Source: Oceanibacterium hippocampi (GTDB taxonomy: Bacteria > Pseudomonadota > Alphaproteobacteria > Sneathiellales > Sneathiellaceae). Taken from it: a stretch of 64,000 bases of DNA. The stretch covers positions 310,001 to 374,000 of the forward strand of contig NZ_FWFR01000003.1 in the NCBI RefSeq assembly GCF_900172325.1, in the 5' to 3' direction. A model generated the notes under the pieces. It made no database searches. It was not told the DNA's origin and worked only from the letters and a program-made list of their open reading frames with translations. A program made the translations under genes and the position numbers. Of the stretch, positions 1-10,678 are shown piece by piece (positions within the stretch are counted from its first letter, which is position 1; every line of letters starts with the position of its first letter).

Positions 1-853
1 GATCGAACGGGGCGGCCAGCGTCACCGGCGGGATCAGGCCGAGATAGTGCAGGATGGTCGCGCCGGTTTCGCGGAGATCCCGCCACCAGCTTTTCGGACG
101 GAAGCGATCCGGGAAGATCATGCAGTTCGCCGACATGATCATCGCCATGTTCGAGATGGCGAAGCTGTTGGCGTAGAACATCGGCAACGGGTTGAACAGG
201 CGTTCCTGCCCGAACCGGACAGTCATCAGGCCGCCCGCCGTCAGATAGCGTTCGGCGGCAAAGTAGAAATACTCGTTCGGAATGACGCAGCCTTTCGGCA
301 TCCCGGTCGTTCCCGAGGTGTAGAGGATGGCCGCCGTGGTCTCGCGCCCGGGCGCCTCGCCGGTGCCGGGCCGACGAGCGGCCGGAATCTCCGGATCATC
401 GCCCTCGCAGACGGCGATGGCCGGTTGCACGTCCAGGGTCGCCACGGCCCCAGTCAACGTACGCAGGCGCGAGGGGAGCGCGACCACGAGATCGACCTCG
501 GCATGGCCGAGAACGAAACGCAGGTCGTCCTGCCGGTAATCCGGGTTGAGCGGCAGGACGCAGACGCCGAGCCCGTTGAGCGCCAGCATATGCACCAGGA
601 TGTCGGGCCGGTTGTCGAGCAGAAGGGCGATCCGGTGACCCGTCGTGAAACCGGCGGCCGCATAAAGCGCCTGGAGCCGCTTCACCGAGGCCGCCACCTC
701 GCGGTAAGACCATTCCGCGCCGCCCGGCAGATAGTCGCGATCGGCCCGGGCCGGGACGGCGATGCAGGCACCTTCGGGGTTGGCCGCCGTGGCGGCCATG
801 AAGGCGTCACAGGCTGTGGATAGGTCTGTCCGCGCCCAGATCTCGGCGTTCAT
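1..853 (-). CDS. Acyl-CoA synthetase (AMP-binding), C-terminus beyond window
   Basis: ANL-superfamily ligase that would activate a carboxylic acid to its CoA thioester via an acyl-adenylate. The first 284 residues are present and the 3' end lies outside the window. The AMP-binding P-loop YTSGTTGMPKG sits near residues 178-188, followed by the FNPLPMFYAN core typical of carnitine/crotonobetaine-CoA-ligase-like proteins. The start codon overlaps the stop of the DUF35 gene by one base (TGATG), which implies translational coupling in the TRAP/thiolase operon. Substrate cannot be read from the sequence; the neighbouring TRAP transporter suggests an imported organic acid. Confidence 0.9.
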   Translation of the reverse strand, partial: MNAEIWARTDLSTACDAFMAATAANPEGACIAVPARADRDYLPGGAEWSYREVAASVKRLQALYAAAGFTTGHRIALLLDNRPDILVHMLALNGLGVCVLPLNPDYRQDDLRFVLGHAEVDLVVALPSRLRTLTGAVATLDVQPAIAVCEGDDPEIPAARRPGTGEAPGRETTAAILYTSGTTGMPKGCVIPNEYFYFAAERYLTAGGLMTVRFGQERLFNPLPMFYANSFAISNMAMIMSANCMIFPDRFRPKSWWRDLRETGATILHYLGLIPPVTLAAPFD

Positions 854-1272
854 CAGGCCCGATCCACCGCCCTGGCCGGACGGAAGGTCACCAGCGGATG
901 CGGATCGTTGCTGGCCGCGAACACCGGTTCCAGTTCCATCCCGATATGAACCGCCTCCGCGTCCGCGCCCGTCAGGTTGGTCACGAACCTGACGCCCGGC
1001 GCATCATCGAATTCAACCAGCCCGACCATGTAGGGAAGGCGATCCGCGAAGGCGGGATCGAAGGCATGGCGGACCACCGTCCAGCTGAACAGGGTGCCGT
1101 TGCGCCGCACCTGGCCCCAGCCGATCTTCTCGCTGCGGCAATGCGGACAGCGCTTCATCGGATACCAGTGAAAGCGGCCGCAGGATTCGCATTTCGGGAA
1201 GCGCAGTTCGCCCTGCCGGGCGTAATCGTAGAAATGCTCGAACTCGGGCGCGAAACTCTGTTGTTCCTTCAT
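853..1272 (-). CDS. DUF35 Zn-ribbon/OB-fold protein (thiolase partner)
   Basis: A 139-aa protein with an N-terminal rubredoxin-like zinc ribbon (Cys28, Cys31, Cys42, Cys45; CESC and CPHC pairs) followed by an OB-fold (NGTLFSWTVV, then YMVGLVEFDD). This two-part architecture is the DUF35 family, usually encoded next to SCP2-type thiolases and acting as their CoA-binding partner. It lies 5 bp after the thiolase stop, which fits that role. I chose the ATG at 1272 because a longer in-frame reading runs inside the thiolase gene and lacks homology. Confidence 0.9.
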   Translation of the reverse strand: MKEQQSFAPEFEHFYDYARQGELRFPKCESCGRFHWYPMKRCPHCRSEKIGWGQVRRNGTLFSWTVVRHAFDPAFADRLPYMVGLVEFDDAPGVRFVTNLTGADAEAVHIGMELEPVFAASNDPHPLVTFRPARAVDRA

Positions 1273-1277
1273 GATCG

Positions 1278-2429
1278 TCACCCTCGTCCCAGCATCAGCA
1301 CGCCGTATTCGGGAACCGAGAGCCCGCTCACCAGGCCGATGCTGGCGTCCTTGACCTGTGCATCGCCGCACTCGCCTCGCAATTGCCGGACCGCTTCCAC
1401 GACATGTTCGATGCCGAGCCGGTAGCTGTAGGACAACATGCCGCCATGGGTGTTGACCGGCAGCCCGTCGTCGATCCCGATTCCCTTCTCGCGGATGAAG
1501 GCTGCCGCCTCGCCCTTGCCGCAGAAGCCGATATCCTCGATCTGCATGAGGCATGAGATCGTGAAGCAGTCATAGATCTCGGCGAAGTCGACATCATCGA
1601 GGGTCACACCCGCTCGCTGCTGGGCACGGCGCGACGCCTCGGCGACCGAGGGAAGATGCAGCATCGCCGGCTTCTGCGTGAAGACATCGTCGCCGGTAAT
1701 GGGTTCGGCGGCGTAGCCGACACCCAGGACCTCGACCGGCCGCTTCCGGCAATCGCGCGCCCGATCCGCGCTCGTCATGACGTAAGCGCCCACGCCGTCC
1801 GAGATCAGGCAGCAATCGGAAATCCGCAGCGGATCGGAAATCATCCGGCTGGCAAAATAATCGTCATAGCTGAGCGGCCGTTTCGCCTGTCCGCCGCCAT
1901 GGCGCATCGCATTGTCGCGCTGGGTGACGGCGATGGTCGCCAGATCGCGCTCGTCGAGCCCGTATTCATGCATGTAGCGCCTGGCCCAGAGCGCGAAATA
2001 GCTTGGCTGGCCGTTGAAACCGTACGGTTTCTCGAAGGCCATCTTGGCCGGGTAAATGTCGTGGAAACCGTAAGGACCACCTGGCCGGGTGCCCCAGTCG
2101 ACGCCGAAATAGAAGAGCACGACATTCGCGAGCCCCTCCCGGATCGCCATTTCCGCGATCATCGGCGCCGCGCAGACCCCGGTCCCACCGTAGGAAATCG
2201 ACGCGTCGAAGTAGCTGTTGACGCCCAGTTGCGCCGCCAGCCATTCATGCGGGACGGACGACGGCATGATGCCGCCGTCCGACATGATCCCGTCGACATC
2301 CGAGGGATCGAGCCCCGCATCCTCGAGCGCGGCCAATGCAGCATCCACCGCAAGTGCCCTCACATCCTTGCCGGCACTCCGTGTCGGCGCCGTTTCTCCA
2401 ACGCCTACAATCGCGATGTTCTTCCGCAT
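1278..2429 (-). CDS. SCP2-type thiolase / acetyl-CoA acetyltransferase family
   Basis: A 383-aa thiolase-fold protein starting MRKNIAIVGVGET. The nucleophile candidate is Cys86 in GGTGVCAAP, and the NTHGG motif near the C-terminus matches the thiolase His box. It lacks the strong signatures of biosynthetic thiolase and looks like the lipid-transfer/SCP2 branch that works with DUF35 proteins in degrading branched or cyclic acyl-CoAs. It sits between dctP (56 bp upstream) and the DUF35 gene (5 bp downstream). Role by context: retro-Claisen cleavage of the CoA ester made by a neighbouring ligase. Confidence 0.88.
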   Translation of the reverse strand: MRKNIAIVGVGETAPTRSAGKDVRALAVDAALAALEDAGLDPSDVDGIMSDGGIMPSSVPHEWLAAQLGVNSYFDASISYGGTGVCAAPMIAEMAIREGLANVVLFYFGVDWGTRPGGPYGFHDIYPAKMAFEKPYGFNGQPSYFALWARRYMHEYGLDERDLATIAVTQRDNAMRHGGGQAKRPLSYDDYFASRMISDPLRISDCCLISDGVGAYVMTSADRARDCRKRPVEVLGVGYAAEPITGDDVFTQKPAMLHLPSVAEASRRAQQRAGVTLDDVDFAEIYDCFTISCLMQIEDIGFCGKGEAAAFIREKGIGIDDGLPVNTHGGMLSYSYRLGIEHVVEAVRQLRGECGDAQVKDASIGLVSGLSVPEYGVLMLGRG

Positions 2430-2485: not shown

Positions 2486-3553
2486 TTACTCGGGGAACTC
2501 CTGCTTGTAGGTCGATGCCGGCTCGATCTTCGCGAGCGTCGACTGGAACAGCTTCACGAACGCCGCGACATCCGCGTCGGTCCGCTCGGAACGGGTCTTG
2601 ATCCATTCCTGGACGAGTGCCGGATAGTCGACCTTCTCCTTCCACTGCTCCACTTCCGCCGGCGTGAAGCGATAGAACTTGACGCCCATTTCCTCGGCCT
2701 TGGCCACGGAAGCGGCATCGCCTTTCTTCACGACCTCGATCGACTTGGCCGGGAATTCGCGCCGCAACTCGGCGATCGCGTTCTTCGCATTGTCGGGCAG
2801 CGCCTTGTAGACATCGAGATTCATCGCCAGCCCGCAGGTGTAGTAGGTGCCCACGCCCGGAGCGATCAGGGTCTTGGTGAATTCCAGCCAGTTCTCAGGC
2901 GCCGGCATCCAGAGCGGGATGCCGAAATAGCCGTCGATCGCGCCGGTCTGCAGGCTGGTGTAGATGTCGGCGGTCGACATCGGCACCGGCACGAGGCCGT
3001 TGGCCTTCGCGATGGCGCCCAGATCGCCGTAGGCCCGGACCTTCATGCCTTCCAGCTCGGCGGAGGAATTCACCACCTTGTTGACGCCGATGATCGTCGC
3101 GGACGAGGCGTCCATCGCCAGCAATTCGACATTCTGGCGATGGAATTCCTCGCGCAGCGGCGGATAGCTGTCATAGAGCTCGGCGATTGCCGACGAGAGC
3201 GCGTCGCCCTTCTCGGTGACATAGGGCAGTTCGGCCATCGAGGTCAGCGGCAGCAGCGCCGGCGCATAGCCGGTGCAGAAATAGCCGACATCGGCGAGGC
3301 CGCTACCGACGCCCTTCAGCTGCTCGGTCGCCTTGATCAGGGCCTGGGAGTAGAAGCGGTCCTTGAGCCCGACATAGCCGTTGGTCCGTTCCTTCAGCTC
3401 CCGAAAATAGTCCTCGTATTGCTGCTGGGATGCCGAGTTCTGGCCGACATGGGTCGAGAAGACCAGTTTGACGTCGGCGACCGCCGGGGCCGACATCGCA
3501 GCGGACAGCAGCAATGCCGCGGCCGCAGCCGTTACTGTGGTTCGTTTCACCAT
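2486..3553 (-). CDS. dctP: TRAP transporter substrate-binding protein (DctP family)
   Basis: A 355-aa periplasmic solute-binding protein. The start MVKRTTV gives a clean signal peptide (A/L-rich core, cleavage likely after APAVA, about residue 27) and has a strong AGGAGG ribosome site 8 nt upstream, so a longer in-frame extension is rejected. The DctP fold shows in KLVFSTHVGQNS and AIDGYFGIPLWMP. It delivers an organic acid to DctQM, encoded just upstream in the operon. Ligand unknown; adjacent CoA ligases suggest a carboxylate. Confidence 0.93.
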   Translation of the reverse strand: MVKRTTVTAAAAALLLSAAMSAPAVADVKLVFSTHVGQNSASQQQYEDYFRELKERTNGYVGLKDRFYSQALIKATEQLKGVGSGLADVGYFCTGYAPALLPLTSMAELPYVTEKGDALSSAIAELYDSYPPLREEFHRQNVELLAMDASSATIIGVNKVVNSSAELEGMKVRAYGDLGAIAKANGLVPVPMSTADIYTSLQTGAIDGYFGIPLWMPAPENWLEFTKTLIAPGVGTYYTCGLAMNLDVYKALPDNAKNAIAELRREFPAKSIEVVKKGDAASVAKAEEMGVKFYRFTPAEVEQWKEKVDYPALVQEWIKTRSERTDADVAAFVKLFQSTLAKIEPASTYKQEFPE

Positions 3554-3639: not shown

Positions 3640-4941
3640 TCATGACTGGCGCGCCAGTTCCGGCAGGAACGTGGCGATTGCGGGAAAGGCGATCAGGATC
3701 GCCAGCGTGATGATCTCGAAGACCAGGAAGATCGAGGCCCCCTGGAAGACCTTGCCCAGCGGCACGTCCGGCGCGATCCCGCGAATGACGAAGACATTGA
3801 CCCCGATGGGCGGGGTGATGTTCGCAAGCTCGCTCATCTTGACGACGATGATCCCGAACCAGATCGGGTCGAAGCCGAGCGCCGTCACTGCCGGATAGAC
3901 GATCGGCAGGGTGATCAGGCACATCGAGATCGGCTCGAGGAACATCCCGAGCGGGATGTAGGCCAGCAGGATGAGCAGCAGGATGACGTAGCGGTTCAGG
4001 TCGGTCGCGGTGAGCATCCGGGCGAAATCCGTGGCCAGCCCGGAAAGCGCGATATACTGGCTGAACAGGCCGGCCCCGATCAGGATGAGAAAGATCATGG
4101 CCGTCGCGGAGACCGCCTGGCGGCCGCCGCCCAGGATCTCGGCGAACGGCACGTCGCGCTTGCAGAACGCCAGGATGAGCGCCGTGACGGCCCCGACCCC
4201 GGCCGCCTCGGTGACCGTGAAGATACCCGTGTAGATGCCGCCGATGATGATCGTGAAGAGCAGCACGATTCCCCAGGCGTGGCGGATGCTGGAGAGCTTC
4301 TCGCGCCAGCTGAACCGCTCGTGGGAAACCGGCATCAGATGCGGCTTCCAGAGCGCGATGACAAACAGCCCGAGGCAGAAGATGAACGCCGTCAGGATCC
4401 CGGGAAGAATTCCGGCGAGCAGCAGCGAGCCGATGTCCTCCTGGGTGATGATGCCGTAAACCACGAGCATGATGCTGGGCGGGATCATGATCCCGAGCAG
4501 CCCGGCCGACGCCACCGTTCCGACACTGATCGCATCCGCGTAACGGAAGCGGCGCATCTCCGAAAGCGCGATGCGGCCGACCGCCGCCGAGGTCGCGACA
4601 CTGGAGCCGGAAGTCGCCGCGAAGGCCGCGCAGGCGAACACCGTGGAGATCGCCAGCCCGCCGGGCAGCCGCCCGACCAGCCGGTAAGCCACGTCATAAG
4701 CCTTGGCGCTTACCCCCGCCTTGCTGGCGAGAAAGCCCATCAGGATGAAGAGCGGAATGACCGCGAGCCCGATATCCGAGACGTTGGCGTAGGGCATGGT
4801 CGACAGCGCGCTCAACGAAACCGGGAAGCCCCGGAGCATCATCAGCCCGACGATCGAGGCGACGATCAGCCCGAAGGCGATCGGCAGCCCGAGGAAAAGC
4901 GCCCCGGCGAAGACGACCATGACGACGATGGTTGATTCCAT
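3640..4941 (-). CDS. dctM: TRAP transporter large permease (DctM family)
   Basis: A 433-aa inner-membrane protein of usual DctM length with about 12-13 hydrophobic segments. Family hallmarks include GLPIAFGLIVASI at the N-terminus, GSSVATSAAVG near residues 110-120, IPPSIMLVVYG, and a C-terminal NITPPIGVNVFVI. It forms the sodium-coupled transport channel with DctQ. It starts 4 bp after the DctQ stop. Confidence 0.96.
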   Translation of the reverse strand: MESTIVVMVVFAGALFLGLPIAFGLIVASIVGLMMLRGFPVSLSALSTMPYANVSDIGLAVIPLFILMGFLASKAGVSAKAYDVAYRLVGRLPGGLAISTVFACAAFAATSGSSVATSAAVGRIALSEMRRFRYADAISVGTVASAGLLGIMIPPSIMLVVYGIITQEDIGSLLLAGILPGILTAFIFCLGLFVIALWKPHLMPVSHERFSWREKLSSIRHAWGIVLLFTIIIGGIYTGIFTVTEAAGVGAVTALILAFCKRDVPFAEILGGGRQAVSATAMIFLILIGAGLFSQYIALSGLATDFARMLTATDLNRYVILLLILLAYIPLGMFLEPISMCLITLPIVYPAVTALGFDPIWFGIIVVKMSELANITPPIGVNVFVIRGIAPDVPLGKVFQGASIFLVFEIITLAILIAFPAIATFLPELARQS

Positions 4942-4945
4942 GGCC

Positions 4946-5446
4946 TCAACCGCCCTCCACGTCGGTGCGGCTGCGCCACGCCCGGACGGCGGACAGCGCC
5001 TGCAACAGGAACATGATCGTCAGGAGCCCGAGGCCGATCGCGACCACGGCCTTGGTCGGCCACAACGGGAAGTGGGTCGTGCCGAACTGGAATTCCTTGG
5101 TCGTGTAGCTGCGGATCGCCTGCGTTGCCGTCCCCCAGGTCATCAGCCCGGAGGTGCCCGTGCAGATCAGCAGCGAAAGGACCTGCGAGGCCCGGCGATA
5201 GGCTGGCGGCGTCAGGTTGACGACCGCCTCCATCGTCACATGGCCGTCCGTCGCCTGGGTGAACGACAGCCCGGCAAAGACGAGGACGGCGAGCAGGATC
5301 GCGGAGATCTCGACGCCGCCGACAATCGCGAACCCGAAGGCGCGGAGCACGACCTCGAAGGTGACCACGAGGCCGAGCAGGATCAGGGCCAAGGCGCCCA
5401 GTGTGCCGGAGCCGCGCACGATCGTGCCCTCGAACCACTTCCGCAT
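4946..5446 (-). CDS. dctQ: TRAP transporter small permease (DctQ family)
   Basis: A 166-aa membrane protein with four predicted transmembrane helices and the DctQ-type FEVVLRAFGF motif near residue 35. The ATG overlaps the upstream ligase stop by one base (TGATG). A longer in-frame reading overlapping the ligase is not real. It partners DctM and receives substrate from DctP. Confidence 0.92.
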   Translation of the reverse strand: MRKWFEGTIVRGSGTLGALALILLGLVVTFEVVLRAFGFAIVGGVEISAILLAVLVFAGLSFTQATDGHVTMEAVVNLTPPAYRRASQVLSLLICTGTSGLMTWGTATQAIRSYTTKEFQFGTTHFPLWPTKAVVAIGLGLLTIMFLLQALSAVRAWRSRTDVEGG

Positions 5447-7104
5447 CAGCCGGCTCCCTGCCTTGCGGCTTGGCCGGTCCGCGCGGCGATTTCCTCGCGC
5501 AGGCGGAACTTCTGCACCTTTCCGCTTGGCGTCATGGGAAAGGTCTCCACGATCTCCAGGTATTCCGGCAGGTACTGGCGCGCGAGGCCCTGATCCTCGA
5601 GATAGCGACGCATGGCCTCGAAACCGAGCGCCCGCCCCTCGCGACAGATGACGACAGCACAGGCACGCTCCTGGAGCCGGGGATCCGGAATGCCGACGAC
5701 AACGGCGCGCTGGATATCGGGATGCCGTTGCAGCAGTTCCTCGACCTCGACCACGGGGATGTTCTCGCCGCCGCGAATGATGATGTCCTTGCTGCGCCCG
5801 GTGATCCGGATATAGCCGTCCGCGGTCATCCGCGCGCGATCGCCGGTCCACACCCAGCCATCCGCCGTGACCGCCTCGACGGTCAGGCCCGGACGCTTGA
5901 AATAGCCGGCGAAAACGGATGGCCCGGCCGCGACGAGGTCGCCCTCTTCGCCCGGATCTGCCGGCGTTCCGTCTTCCCGCAGGACCCGCACCCGGCACTG
6001 GCCGATGGCGCAGCCGTCGCTGCCGAGAATCCGCTCGGGGGTATCATCGGTATTGCTCAGGGTGACCAGGCCGAGTTCGGTCATGCCCCAGCCGGTGACG
6101 ACCGCGCAGCCAAGCCCCTCATGGGCCTTTGTCAGCAGGACGCGGGGAACGGCGGCCCCGGAACACAGGAAAGTTCCCAGGGTCGCGGCCGAGCGCACGC
6201 CGCGCCTCTCCGCCGCCTCGCAAAGATCCTGCAGGAAGGGTGTCGCCCCGATCATCCAGGTCACGCCTTCCCGCTCGATGAGTTCCAGCCCCCTTTCGCC
6301 GTTCCAGCTATCCATCAGGACCAGCCGTCCGCCCATGAGGATCGGCAATTGCCCGCCGTAGGCGAAGCCGGTCTGGTGCCCGAAGGTCGACGGCATGAGG
6401 ATGACGTCGCCCTCCCCGAGCTTCTGGCGCTGGAGCAGGCCGACTAGCGGGCAGAGATTGGTGTTGTGGGTGTGCATCGCCCCCTTCGGCTCACCCGTGG
6501 TCCCGGAGGTGAAGGCGATCTCCGACAGTTCCCGCGGATCGACCCGGTAGCGCGGCGCCGACCGATGGCTGCTGTCTGTCAGTTCATCGAAGGGACGGGC
6601 GGGCGCGCGGGCACCATCGCCGACGGCGAAGACCGCCGCGACCGAGGGCAGGTCGGGTATCAGCCTCTCGATCATGGCGATGTGATCGAATCCCCGGAAA
6701 CTCGCGGGCACGACGACGATTTTCGGCTCGACCAGCCCGAGCATGAAACGCAGTTCGCGTTCCCGGTAAATCGGCGGCAGCGGGTTGCAAACCGCACCGA
6801 GCCTTGCAGCGGCATATTCAAGGATCGGGAACTGCCACCAGTTCGGCAATTGCACAGACACGACGTCGCCGGGTCCGATCCCGAACGCGTGCAGGCCAGC
6901 CGCCGCGGCTTCGGTCAGATCCAGAACGTCGCGGTAACTCAGCCGCATGTCCCGATCGACGATGAGTGTCCTCTCGGGGTGGCGATCCGCCGCCCGCACG
7001 AGCAGGTCGAAGATCGTCGCGTCCGGCCACAGGCCGGATTCGACGTAGCGCTCCATTTGCGCGGCGGACGGGACGTGCAGCAGTCGCGAGGACGATCCGC
7101 TCAT
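5446..7104 (-). CDS. Acyl-CoA synthetase (AMP-binding)
   Basis: A 552-aa full-length ANL ligase and first gene of the TRAP operon. Visible motifs are the P-loop FTSGTTGEPKGAMHTH, GWGMTELG (A5), TGDRARM (A7), GRSKDIIIRGGENI (A8) and the catalytic lysine region PSGKVQKFRLRE at the C-terminus. It probably activates the acid carried by the TRAP system. The start MSGSSSRLL was chosen because upstream in-frame sequence is antisense to the divergent SDR gene. Confidence 0.93.
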   Translation of the reverse strand: MSGSSSRLLHVPSAAQMERYVESGLWPDATIFDLLVRAADRHPERTLIVDRDMRLSYRDVLDLTEAAAAGLHAFGIGPGDVVSVQLPNWWQFPILEYAAARLGAVCNPLPPIYRERELRFMLGLVEPKIVVVPASFRGFDHIAMIERLIPDLPSVAAVFAVGDGARAPARPFDELTDSSHRSAPRYRVDPRELSEIAFTSGTTGEPKGAMHTHNTNLCPLVGLLQRQKLGEGDVILMPSTFGHQTGFAYGGQLPILMGGRLVLMDSWNGERGLELIEREGVTWMIGATPFLQDLCEAAERRGVRSAATLGTFLCSGAAVPRVLLTKAHEGLGCAVVTGWGMTELGLVTLSNTDDTPERILGSDGCAIGQCRVRVLREDGTPADPGEEGDLVAAGPSVFAGYFKRPGLTVEAVTADGWVWTGDRARMTADGYIRITGRSKDIIIRGGENIPVVEVEELLQRHPDIQRAVVVGIPDPRLQERACAVVICREGRALGFEAMRRYLEDQGLARQYLPEYLEIVETFPMTPSGKVQKFRLREEIAARTGQAARQGAG

Positions 7105-7211
7105 GACCCGGCCACCCTGTGCGAGCCCGATCGCTGCATGGTGGATCTCGTTTCTTCCCTGCCTGGCATCGCCAGTCTGGACCCGGCTTGTTCTATGCCT
7201 TAGTAATTGAA

Positions 7212-7225
7212 TGAATGATCGTTCA
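7212..7225. promoter_or_regulatory. TetR-type operator, copy 1
   Basis: A near-palindromic 14-mer, TGAATGATCGTTCA, in the 156-bp divergent gap between the ligase/TRAP operon and the SDR gene. Its reverse complement matches the site at 8856-8869 at 13 of 14 positions. TetR-family regulators of acyl-CoA metabolism often bind palindromes of this TGAAnnnnnnTTCA form. Assignment to the TetR at 8897 is inferred. Confidence 0.65.
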
Positions 7226-7260
7226 TTTTCTGGCAACCTGTCAAGCGGATGGAGGCGTCG

Positions 7261-8016
7261 ATGAAGAGCGGGACAATCGTGGTCGTGACGGGCGCGACGG
7301 CGGGCATCGGGGCGGCTGCCGCGCGGCGGTTCGCCCGGGAAGGGGCCCGCGTCGTCGCCGTGGGCAGGCGCAAGGACCGCCTGGAAAGACTGGCCGGGGA
7401 ACTGGGTCCGGATTGCCTGCCAGTGGCGCTGGATGTCACCGACGCGGAGGCGGTGGCCGAAGCGTTCGGCAGTCTGCCGGCAACCCATCGGGAGGTCGGG
7501 ATCCTGATCAACAATGCCGGCGTTTCGCTCGGCGACGCCCCGGTCTCCTCTGCCAGTCTCGAGCACATGCAGCGAACGATCGAGGTCAACACGATGGGCC
7601 TCGTCAACGTCACCCACAGCCTGCTGCCGGGAATGATCGAGCGCGACCGCGGCGACATCATCAACATCGGGTCGGTCGCCGGCACCTACCCCTATCCGAA
7701 GGGGCATGTCTACGGCGCCTCGAAAGCCTTCGTTCGCCAGTTCACGCTCAACCTCCGCGCCGATCTTCTCGGCCACCAGATTCGCGCGATGTGCATCGAA
7801 CCGGGCACGGTTCACACCGAGTTCGCCTATGTGCGGACCGGCGACGCGGAATCGGCGAAACGCTTCTATGACCACAAGGATCTGCTCGAGGCCGAGGACA
7901 TCGCCGAGATCATCCACTTCGTCACGTCGCTGCCGCGACGGGTGAACATCAACAGCCTGGAAGTGATGTCGACGGCGCAGTCCTTCGGTTTCTTTCGCTT
8001 CTCGGAGGACCTCTGA
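7261..8016 (+). CDS. SDR-family oxidoreductase (YdfG-like)
   Basis: A 251-aa classical short-chain dehydrogenase. It shows the nucleotide-binding TGATAGIG, the NNAG motif, a catalytic Ser in NIGSVAG, and YGASK as the Tyr/Lys pair. The sequence resembles the serine/3-hydroxy acid dehydrogenase branch. The start at 7261 is preferred over an ATG at 7249 because GGAGG lies 5 nt upstream of it. Likely NADP-dependent oxidation or reduction of a hydroxy or keto intermediate of the neighbouring pathway. Confidence 0.9.
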   Translation: MKSGTIVVVTGATAGIGAAAARRFAREGARVVAVGRRKDRLERLAGELGPDCLPVALDVTDAEAVAEAFGSLPATHREVGILINNAGVSLGDAPVSSASLEHMQRTIEVNTMGLVNVTHSLLPGMIERDRGDIINIGSVAGTYPYPKGHVYGASKAFVRQFTLNLRADLLGHQIRAMCIEPGTVHTEFAYVRTGDAESAKRFYDHKDLLEAEDIAEIIHFVTSLPRRVNINSLEVMSTAQSFGFFRFSEDL

Positions 8017-8027
8017 TCGCGGCCCGG

Positions 8028-8789
8028 CTAAAGCGCCGGCCAGATTCCCCCTGAAACCGCGATCATCTCGCCGGTCACGTAGGACGCCTCCTCGCTGGCC
8101 AGGAACAGCACGGTATTGGCCACCTCACGTGGCTCCCCGAGCCGCTTCAGAACCGTGCGGCTGCGATACTTCTCCGTCTCCTCGGGCGGCATGTTGGCCA
8201 TCACGCTGGTGCGGATCGTCGCCGGCGCGACACAGTTGACGTTGACTTGCGGAGCCAGCTCCATCGCCAGGCTGCGCGTGAGCGAGGCGACGGCGGCCTT
8301 GGCGGCGCCATAATCGGCCTGGCCCGCCTCGCCCGCCATGTTGATCGAGCTGAAGTTGACGATGCGTCCGTACCCGCTCCGCAACATGTCGGGCGCGACC
8401 AAGCGTACCAGGTGAAAGGCGCCCTTGAGATTGAGAGCGAGCGTTTCATCCAGCCGCTCCTCCGGCATCTCGAGGATCGGCATGTAGAGCGTCTGCGATC
8501 GGATGCCGCCGACGACATTGATCAGCACATCGATCGTCGGGAAGCGCTCGTGCCCCGCGTCGACCAGCGCCCGCGCCTCGACCGCGTCGCGAACGTCGGC
8601 CCGGCGGGAGACAATGTCAGCGCCGGATTGCAATGCTGCCCGAATTCGCTCCGCCGCGGCCTCCAGGCGGCGGCCGGAAATATCGGTGAGAACGAGGCTC
8701 GCGCCTTCCTCGGCAAACCGCGTCGCCACGGCCTCGCCCATCGGCCCCCCCGCCCCTGTCACCAGGGCCACTCTACCCGCCAGCCGCAT
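8028..8789 (-). CDS. SDR-family oxidoreductase (FabG-like)
   Basis: A 253-aa short-chain dehydrogenase convergent with the SDR gene at 7261. TGAGGPMGEA is the dinucleotide site (last turn G-P-M-G), NVVGG replaces the usual NNAG, NFSSINM carries the catalytic Ser and YGAAK the Tyr/Lys pair. GGAGG lies 7 nt before the ATG at 8789, so an N-terminal extension from 8879 is rejected. The promoter region is shared with the divergent TetR gene and contains the second operator. Confidence 0.9.
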   Translation of the reverse strand: MRLAGRVALVTGAGGPMGEAVATRFAEEGASLVLTDISGRRLEAAAERIRAALQSGADIVSRRADVRDAVEARALVDAGHERFPTIDVLINVVGGIRSQTLYMPILEMPEERLDETLALNLKGAFHLVRLVAPDMLRSGYGRIVNFSSINMAGEAGQADYGAAKAAVASLTRSLAMELAPQVNVNCVAPATIRTSVMANMPPEETEKYRSRTVLKRLGEPREVANTVLFLASEEASYVTGEMIAVSGGIWPAL

Positions 8790-8855
8790 GTCCACGCCTC
8801 CGCCTGTTGCCTTCGAATTTCCGTTCGCCTGACCCGAACGTTCCTGATAAAATAC

Positions 8856-8869
8856 TGAACGCTCATTCA
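8856..8869. promoter_or_regulatory. TetR-type operator, copy 2
   Basis: TGAACGCTCATTCA lies between the divergent SDR (8789) and TetR (8897) genes and matches the reverse complement of the 7212-7225 site at 13 of 14 bases. The position implies autoregulation plus control of the SDR gene. Confidence 0.65.
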
Positions 8870-8896
8870 ATTGAAACAAAGAAATGGCGGCTTGCC

Positions 8897-9511
8897 ATGG
8901 CCCGTCCCTCCCGTCGCATGCAGCAGGCAGAACTGGCCGACTTCCGGCGTCGGCAACTTCTCAAGGCGGCGATCAAGCTGTTCGGCGCGAAGGGCTATCA
9001 CGTGACGACGATACGGGACATCGCCGACGCCGCCGAGGTCAGCGTCGGCATGATCTACCAGTATTTCGAGGACAAGGAGGATCTCCTCTCGTCCGCGATC
9101 ATGGAGATCCTCGATTCCTATATCCGCGAGATCCCGAAGGCGATCGACGGCGAGACAAGCCCCGAGAAGCGCTTTCACGCCGCCATCCTCGCCTATGCGC
9201 GGGTCATCGACCGCAACCGCGACTCGGCCGCGATCGGCTACCGGACGTCATGGGCGCTTCGCAAGGACCGCCTTGCTGTCGTTTTCCGGAAGGAGCAGGA
9301 AACGGCCGGCATGATCCGCCGCTGCGTCGACGCCTGCATCGCGGCGAAGGTTTTCCGGGAGGTCGACGCGGAGATCCTGACCTACCAGATCATCGTCCTG
9401 GTGCATTCCTGGGCGCTCAACGCCTGGCGGTTGCCGAAATCGCTGACTGTCGACGACTATGTCGAACGGAATCTCTCGGTGCTTCTCGCACCGGTCAACA
9501 GGCAGGCATAG
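8897..9511 (+). CDS. TetR/AcrR-family transcriptional regulator
   Basis: A 204-aa repressor with an N-terminal helix-turn-helix (LLKAAIKLFGAKGYHVTTI, then IADAAEVSVGMIYQYFEDKE at about residues 32-62) and an all-alpha ligand domain. HTH wording is close to FadR/PsrA-like regulators that sense acyl-CoAs. The start MARPSRRM places the HTH at the usual distance; a longer reading from 8807 crosses the operator. It likely controls the ligase/TRAP operon and both SDR genes. Confidence 0.93.
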   Translation: MARPSRRMQQAELADFRRRQLLKAAIKLFGAKGYHVTTIRDIADAAEVSVGMIYQYFEDKEDLLSSAIMEILDSYIREIPKAIDGETSPEKRFHAAILAYARVIDRNRDSAAIGYRTSWALRKDRLAVVFRKEQETAGMIRRCVDACIAAKVFREVDAEILTYQIIVLVHSWALNAWRLPKSLTVDDYVERNLSVLLAPVNRQA

Positions 9512-9559: not shown

Positions 9560-10678
9560 ATGTCGCTTCGCCTTCTTTCGCCGGTCGATATCGGCCCGTA
9601 CAGGCTTCGCAACCGGATGGTCATGGCCCCGCTGACGCGGTCCCGCGCCGCGGAGGGCGAGGTGCCGACGGAGATGAACGCGCTCTATTATCGCCAGCGG
9701 GCTTCGGCCGGGCTGATCGTCTCGGAAGGGACAATCATCTCGCCCGAGGGTCGCGGCTTTACCGATACGCCCGGCCTGTTCACCGGGGCCCAGGTCGAGG
9801 GTTGGCGGAAGGTAACCGAAGCGGTCCATGACGCCGGCGGACGGATCTTCGCCCAGCTCTGGCATGTCGGACGCCAGTCACATCGCGACCTGCAACCGGA
9901 TGGCGGGGCGCCTGTCGCCCCTTCGGTGGTGCCCGCGATCGGAAAATGCCGCACCCGCGGCGGGCTGAAGGACTTCTCCGAACCGCGCGCCCTTACAATC
10001 GATGAGATCGCGCGCATCGTGTCGGACTACCGCCGCGCAGCCTGCAACGCGCTCGAGGCGGGCTTCGACGGTGTCGAGTTGCATGGCGCGAACGGCTACC
10101 TCGTCGACCAGTTTCTCCAGGACGGCGCGAACCGGCGCACCGACCGCTACGGAGGATCGCTGGAGAACCGGTCCCGCTTCCTGTTCGAGGTGCTCGCCGC
10201 GCTGATCGAGACATGGGGCGCAGGCCGGGTCGGCCTTCGGCTCTCGCCGCACAACAAGCATGGCGAAATCTCGGATTCCGATCCCTGGGCCCTGCACGAG
10301 TATCTCGCGCGCCGGCTCTCGGGGCGCGGCCTCGCCTATCTGCACGTCACCGAGCCGCGTACCCTGCCGGGCGGCTACATCCGAGAGGACGAGGCCGCCA
10401 ACGCGGCGCCGCGCCTGCGACCGCTCTTCGACGGCCCCTATATCGCGGCCGGCGGCTTCGGGCGCAACAGTGCCGAGGAGCTGATCGCCGCCGGGCACGC
10501 CGACCTCGTGGCCTTCGGACGCAGCTTTCTCGCCAACCCTGACCTGCCCGAGCGGTTCAATCGCGGCTTGCGCCTCAATCCTTACGATCGAAAGACATTC
10601 TACAGCGAAGGCCCGCGAGGATATGTCGACTATCCGACTTGGGCGGAATCCGGGGATTCAGCCGACACCGCTTCATGA
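9560..10678 (+). CDS. NADH:flavin oxidoreductase, Old Yellow Enzyme family
   Basis: A 372-aa FMN-binding TIM barrel of full OYE length. Markers include the N-terminal PLTRSRA, LWHVGR, the His/Asn substrate pair in VELHGANGYLVDQF, and the C-terminal FGRSFLANPDLPER. This is the alkene-reductase (NemA-like) branch that reduces activated C=C bonds of enones or unsaturated acids using NAD(P)H. It follows TetR by 48 bp and may be co-transcribed. Confidence 0.94.
   Translation: MSLRLLSPVDIGPYRLRNRMVMAPLTRSRAAEGEVPTEMNALYYRQRASAGLIVSEGTIISPEGRGFTDTPGLFTGAQVEGWRKVTEAVHDAGGRIFAQLWHVGRQSHRDLQPDGGAPVAPSVVPAIGKCRTRGGLKDFSEPRALTIDEIARIVSDYRRAACNALEAGFDGVELHGANGYLVDQFLQDGANRRTDRYGGSLENRSRFLFEVLAALIETWGAGRVGLRLSPHNKHGEISDSDPWALHEYLARRLSGRGLAYLHVTEPRTLPGGYIREDEAANAAPRLRPLFDGPYIAAGGFGRNSAEELIAAGHADLVAFGRSFLANPDLPERFNRGLRLNPYDRKTFYSEGPRGYVDYPTWAESGDSADTAS

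Follow-up and report, generated by a model that had tools for sequence, protein, structure and literature searches.

A shared palindrome as the probable TetR operator of a ligase–TRAP–thiolase operon and two short-chain dehydrogenase genes

The locus lies at the left end of the window (the whole stretch of 64,000 nucleotides that was analysed) and comprises the following genes and sequence features.

1–853, minus strand: LIG2, second acyl-CoA ligase (552 aa), crossing the window edge and extending about 805 bases further left
853–1272, minus strand: ChsH2-like zinc-ribbon/OB-fold protein
1278–2429, minus strand: SCP-x-type thiolase
2486–3553, minus strand: DctP, TRAP solute-binding protein
3640–4941, minus strand: DctM, TRAP transporter large membrane subunit
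4946–5446, minus strand: DctQ, TRAP transporter small membrane subunit
5446–7104, minus strand: acyl-CoA ligase 1
7212–7225, strand not applicable: candidate operator site 1, TGAATGATCGTTCA, in the ligase 1/SDR1 divergent gap 7105–7260 (156 bp)
7215–7244, minus strand: promoter-like TTGACA-18-GATCAT (10/12 matches), facing the ligase operon
7261–8016, plus strand: SDR1, YdfG-like short-chain dehydrogenase, by position expressed from the site 1 gap
8028–8789, minus strand: SDR2, FabG-like short-chain dehydrogenase, by position expressed from the site 2 gap
8856–8869: candidate operator site 2, TGAACGCTCATTCA (reverse complement TGAATGAGCGTTCA), in the SDR2/TetR divergent gap 8790–8896 (107 bp)
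8897–9511, plus strand: TetR-family regulator (204 aa), TetR_N + TetR_C_24
9560–10678, plus strand: OYE-type FMN oxidoreductase (N-ethylmaleimide reductase-like)

The minus-strand genes follow one another with small gaps in the order ligase 1, DctQ, DctM, DctP, thiolase, OB-fold protein, LIG2. For ligase 1, the best NCBIfam model is that of cyclohexanecarboxylate-CoA ligase (TIGR03208), which it matches with 546.8 bits, below the cut-off of 792.3. Ligase 1 and SDR1 diverge across site 1, which lies 35 bp before SDR1, and SDR2 and TetR diverge across site 2, so that the gene calls bear out the placement of the sites in both divergent gaps. The OYE-type gene begins 48 bp behind tetR and is probably co-transcribed with it. 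The regulated set of the original prediction, consisting of the TRAP–ligase–thiolase operon and the two SDR genes, is supported by comparison but incomplete; it missed LIG2, the OB-fold protein, the OYE-type gene, and a third site discussed below.

The regulator carries the N-terminal helix-turn-helix and the helical ligand domain of the TetR family, with scores of 63.4 bits for TetR_N (cut-off 24) and 41.1 bits for TetR_C_24 (cut-off 26.4), and its predicted structure is all-helical with a mean pLDDT of 95.5. The palindromic operator in its own and target promoters, which also characterizes the family, is present here at the level of sequence.

A search allowing no mismatch finds the two sites exactly at 7212–7225 and 8856–8869, and the predicted match of 13 out of 14 bases holds when one of them is reverse-complemented. 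The lower value in direct orientation (11/14) is immaterial, because the site is a palindrome. Taken alone, the pairwise match is modest evidence, worth about 0.5–1.3%: the best 14-mer match reaches at least 13 bases in 18 of 4000 trials with dinucleotide-shuffled gaps and in 53 of 3973 pairs of random same-length stretches from the window. These frequencies speak for a chance likeness of two AT-rich promoter stretches, which is nevertheless strongly disfavoured, and to our mind very improbable, in view of the rarity of the palindrome in the genome and its enrichment at the loci of TetR relatives, both described in the following.

A genome-wide motif scan had been proposed in the original prediction. 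In the 4,833,437 bases scanned there are three perfect copies of the symmetric form TGAAYGNNCRTTCA, two of which are sites 1 and 2, and 18 copies with one mismatch, while a reversed control pattern gives four places in total. This rarity is stronger evidence than the match between the two sites. The surroundings of the third perfect copy are as follows.

C6:225500–226066: gene of the carboxymuconolactone-decarboxylase family (CMD/AhpD-like)
C6:226087–226100 (L001:1501–1514): third perfect site, identical to site 1
about C6:226117–226701: second TetR gene (TetR_C_13 type)

The third site is located before the CMD-family gene and behind the second TetR gene, and it may belong to the other TetR, to the TetR of the window, or to both. 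Its position allows a different reading of the data, in which the palindrome is of a general TetR type, employed by further repressors too, and the second TetR reads one of the two window sites or shares it with the window TetR. In line with this, the own upstream site of the second TetR gene, GGAACGATCGATC, has its core in common with the operator motif, and in the two genomes with orthologs of the TetR/CMD pair (G230 and G102) a site of related sequence is kept before the other TetR. At the CMD gene, G230 has a degenerate site and G102 lacks one, a comparison that covers these two genomes only. Against such a reading, both window sites lie in gaps around the neighbours of the window TetR, and the motif tracks the subfamily of that TetR in 70 of the 80 loci compared below. 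We therefore consider an assignment of the window sites to the second TetR to be rather improbable, and the window TetR to be the preferred reader of both.

The comparison was made around relatives of the window TetR drawn from whole genomes, plasmids (4 records), and GTDB species genomes. When the TetR sequence alone served as the query, a related-locus scan gave no relative. An alignment as the query gave 302, and the best 80 loci of these were kept, amounting to 1,172,347 bases; in the class and phylum draws, where at most 7–8 candidates were scored per genome, the counts of relatives are to be read as "at least". Gene contexts covered 40 of the 80 GTDB loci.

Perfect copies of TGAAYGNNCRTTCA number 53 in 37 of these best 80 loci, whereas 179 control palindromes with permuted half-sites have 0.26 sites on average. 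The largest of these controls (20 sites) is YGAATG, a one-base shift of the motif itself, and the next one gives 4. When up to one mismatch is allowed, a site is present in 70 of the 80 loci (151 copies altogether) and absent from 10. For 40 sampled controls, from which YGAATG was omitted beforehand because of this shift, the number of loci averages 3.9 and does not exceed 20. Sites no more than 700 bp from the TetR gene are present in 26 of the 80 loci, compared to 0–3 in 20 shuffled repeats; away from tetR the background of the relatives' loci is also raised (0.106 vs 0.263 sites per kb). The 53 perfect sites fall in 52 distinct full-length sequence contexts, although the loci are not independent, some being from related species. 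The G+C content around these sites is 13 points lower, and 19 of the 53 lie outside long open reading frames, compared to 70 of 1000 random positions, a test that is weak in these G+C-rich genomes.

In the first set of 20 relatives, 8 carry a copy with no more than a single mismatch not further than 2.5 kb from the TetR gene, 7 of them both before and behind the gene, and 12 have none. Three of these 12 instead show an 18-bp variant, TGAATGATTAGTCATTCA, which is found upstream of the TetR relatives in L061, L062, and L064, all from the family to which the window belongs. Two more of the 12 are the 2,4-D plasmids pJP4 and pDB1, which show the palindrome TTGAGTGAAGCTTCACTCAA described at the close of this comparison. 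Paired or triple perfect copies of TGAAYGNNCRTTCA, 20–60 bp apart, are seen around 3350–3560 in L119, L123, L128, L133, L141, and L143; these loci come from Paramagnetospirillum-like and related alphaproteobacteria, and the copies are several kb before the TetR gene.

On this comparative evidence, it is very probable that this TetR subfamily uses the palindrome as its operator, and that this operator connects the ligase–TRAP–thiolase operon with the two SDR genes and with tetR. The central claim of the original prediction, a shared TetR operator, is hence well supported by the comparison, both by the genome scan and by the loci of the relatives.

The orthologous loci add information on the position of the operator. 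In the alphaproteobacterium G393 (L057) and in Vineibacter terrae (L109), the order ligase 1, DctQ, DctM, DctP, thiolase, OB-fold protein, ligase 2 is kept, and SDR1 (56–57%) and TetR are found across a divergent gap from the ligase operon; an ortholog of SDR2 (62%) is present in L057. The ligase/SDR1 gaps contain the palindromes TTGAATGAGCGTATATTCAA in L057, beside TTGACA, and TTGAATATATATTCAA in L109, beside TTGACT, which occupy the place of site 1 in the window, where it adjoins TTGACA. A 12-mer of site 2, ACGCTCATTCAA (8859–8870), recurs unchanged in the ligase/SDR1 gap of L057. The 14-mer is absent from both loci even with up to one mismatch, only the related palindromes being present, and for this reason the orthologs support the position of the operator and its half-site rather than its exact sequence.

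In both orthologous loci SDR1 and TetR lie in this order on one strand, and a single operator may therefore serve the two genes there. In the window, the two are separated by SDR2, which points the other way, and a second operator is present, from which we infer that this operator came with the rearrangement. In a third, more partial locus, from a Rhizobiaceae MAG (L102), there are sites on both sides of TetR, with genes for ligase 2, DctP, thiolase, and OB-fold protein next to them. Two further thiolase orthologs (G090 and G302) were set aside, since they retain only the thiolase/OB part with the ligase or TRAP genes distant; no TetR relative is found there, and they have no bearing on the operator.

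As to how site 1 might act, one sigma-70-like site was found in 7080–9000, compared to a shuffle mean of 0.3, and it is the promoter-like sequence facing the ligase operon. Its second hexamer (7220–7215) falls within site 1, such that the operator overlaps the predicted −10 box. The same scan found no promoter-like site at site 2, and repression at this site is accordingly argued from its position.

Regarding the ligand, the closest matches of the predicted fold are PfmR (Z 22.5), KstR2 (20.9), AibR with isovaleryl-CoA (20.4), FadR with stearoyl-CoA (18.6), and MbdR (18.0), and the best solved relatives by sequence include 3dcf, Mce3R, and KstR2, together with the FadR of Bacillus when a profile is used. 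KstR2 is an acyl-CoA responder, AibR and FadR are taken as such from the titles of their structure entries, and MbdR is reported to respond to 3-methylbenzoyl-CoA (PMC4424350). A CoA-thioester inducer is likely because the nearest relatives by fold and sequence include these acyl-CoA-responsive repressors. The common fold of the model is no proof of ligand class, however, as PfmR gives a higher score, and DarR, whose structure was solved with cyclic nucleotides, one that is about 1 lower. The window TetR also stays below the cut-offs of the equivalog models for Bacillus-type FadR (NF053878, 59.4 bits, cut-off 200) and for the cholesterol regulator KstR (NF033703, 41.1 bits, cut-off 280).

By analogy, it is plausible that the inducer is one acyl-CoA made by the ligase, as predicted originally, bearing in mind that the operon has two ligases. 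We have also considered that the same repressor and operators respond to the free acid or to a later intermediate of the pathway instead. The ligands of TetR proteins with similar folds are of many kinds, and the two ligases, the thiolase, and the three oxidoreductases could give rise to several intermediates. Since the nearest characterized relatives by sequence and fold include the acyl-CoA responders FadR, KstR2, AibR, and MbdR, we regard this alternative as unlikely, albeit deserving consideration, and keep the ligase product as the preferred inducer.

The following circuit, in which we infer the binding, the repression, and the CoA-thioester inducer, can be proposed. A TetR dimer would bind each of the palindromes at 7212–7225 and 8856–8869. 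At site 1 the dimer would cover the −10 region of the ligase–TRAP–thiolase–OB–ligase operon and block RNA polymerase, and at site 2 it would control SDR2 and its own tetR–OYE unit. The TRAP transporter would take up the substrate acid, ligase present at leak level would activate it, and the resulting CoA thioester would bind the repressor and release it from both sites. Uptake, activation, redox reactions, and thiolytic cleavage would then be induced jointly. We assign a probability of about 0.78 to this circuit as a whole, that is, TetR on both palindromes, freed by a CoA thioester, with joint induction of the acid catabolism genes. The circuit is of a known kind, in which a TetR repressor probably responds to a CoA thioester, and is an ordinary form of bacterial gene control.

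A broader proposal, to which we give somewhat less than even odds, is that a widespread TetR subfamily of alpha- and betaproteobacteria, present also on 2,4-D catabolic plasmids, uses one operator code, approximately TGAAYGATCATTCA with spacing variants, for many different acyl-CoA catabolic modules. If so, the regulator and its operator would form a portable control cassette that stays recognizable while enzymes, transporters, and substrates are swapped. The motif, with its strong comparative support, could allow regulon prediction for many unannotated acid-degradation clusters, and from its layout the locus looks like a ready-made sensor for the ligase product, to be used when the substrate has been named.

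The available text of the reports on MbdR (PMC4424350), proteobacterial regulons (PMC5343134), BkaR (PMC3920632), BadR (PMC9795900), and EdcR (PMC8700777) does not describe this operator. The open-access literature, with figure strings and subscription papers outside the scope of the search, likewise yielded no motif for the subfamily of the window TetR.

Several known systems can be compared with the locus. The FadR of Bacillus, a TetR-family protein responding to fatty-acyl-CoA, is a relative of the window TetR by both sequence and fold. Its operator, TGAATGANTANTCATTCA, has the same half-site as here with a wider spacing (a 4 bp difference), and the variant TGAATGATTAGTCATTCA mentioned above resembles it; FadR, however, controls general beta-oxidation. 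KstR2 of Mycobacterium matches the window TetR over residues 14–202 in addition to the fold, but the identity is only about 21%, and KstR2 governs a catabolic regulon in a different host group and with a different operator.

MbdR of Azoarcus sp. CIB, which acts on 3-methylbenzoate degradation, is similar in being a TetR repressor of a CoA-ligase/transport/degradation cluster, with several operators over promoter elements and an aryl-CoA, the product of the ligase, as inducer (PMC4424350). It differs in its operator (ATACN10GTAT compared to TGAAYGNNCRTTCA here; PMC4424350) and in having other genes, and its sequence match to the window TetR is confined to the HTH region. In the bad-ali system of Aromatoleum and Rhodopseudomonas, the logic is the same, the repressor BadR in a divergent gap being freed by the ligase product CHC-CoA, but BadR is of MarR type with the operator CAAN4TTG (PMC9795900). 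Ligase 1 of the window comes nearest to the CHC-CoA ligase model, although below its cut-off.

A perfect 20-bp palindrome, TTGAGTGAAGCTTCACTCAA, occurs at 10522–10541 in L052, 10475–10494 in L053, and 7728–7747 in L090. In the plasmids pJP4 and pDB1 it separates an SDR gene from the transporter gene that comes next, with close relatives of the window TetR nearby, and in Cupriavidus pampae behind an SDR-like match, near a close relative of the window TetR. These two plasmids hold the closest plasmid relatives of the window TetR (48–50% identity), and their tfdA-linked region resembles the window in that TetR stands beside ligase, thiolase, OB-fold, and SDR genes. It differs in having an ABC instead of a TRAP transporter, an extra Rieske-type oxygenase, and, in place of the 14-mer, the 20-bp palindrome before the ABC transporter operon.
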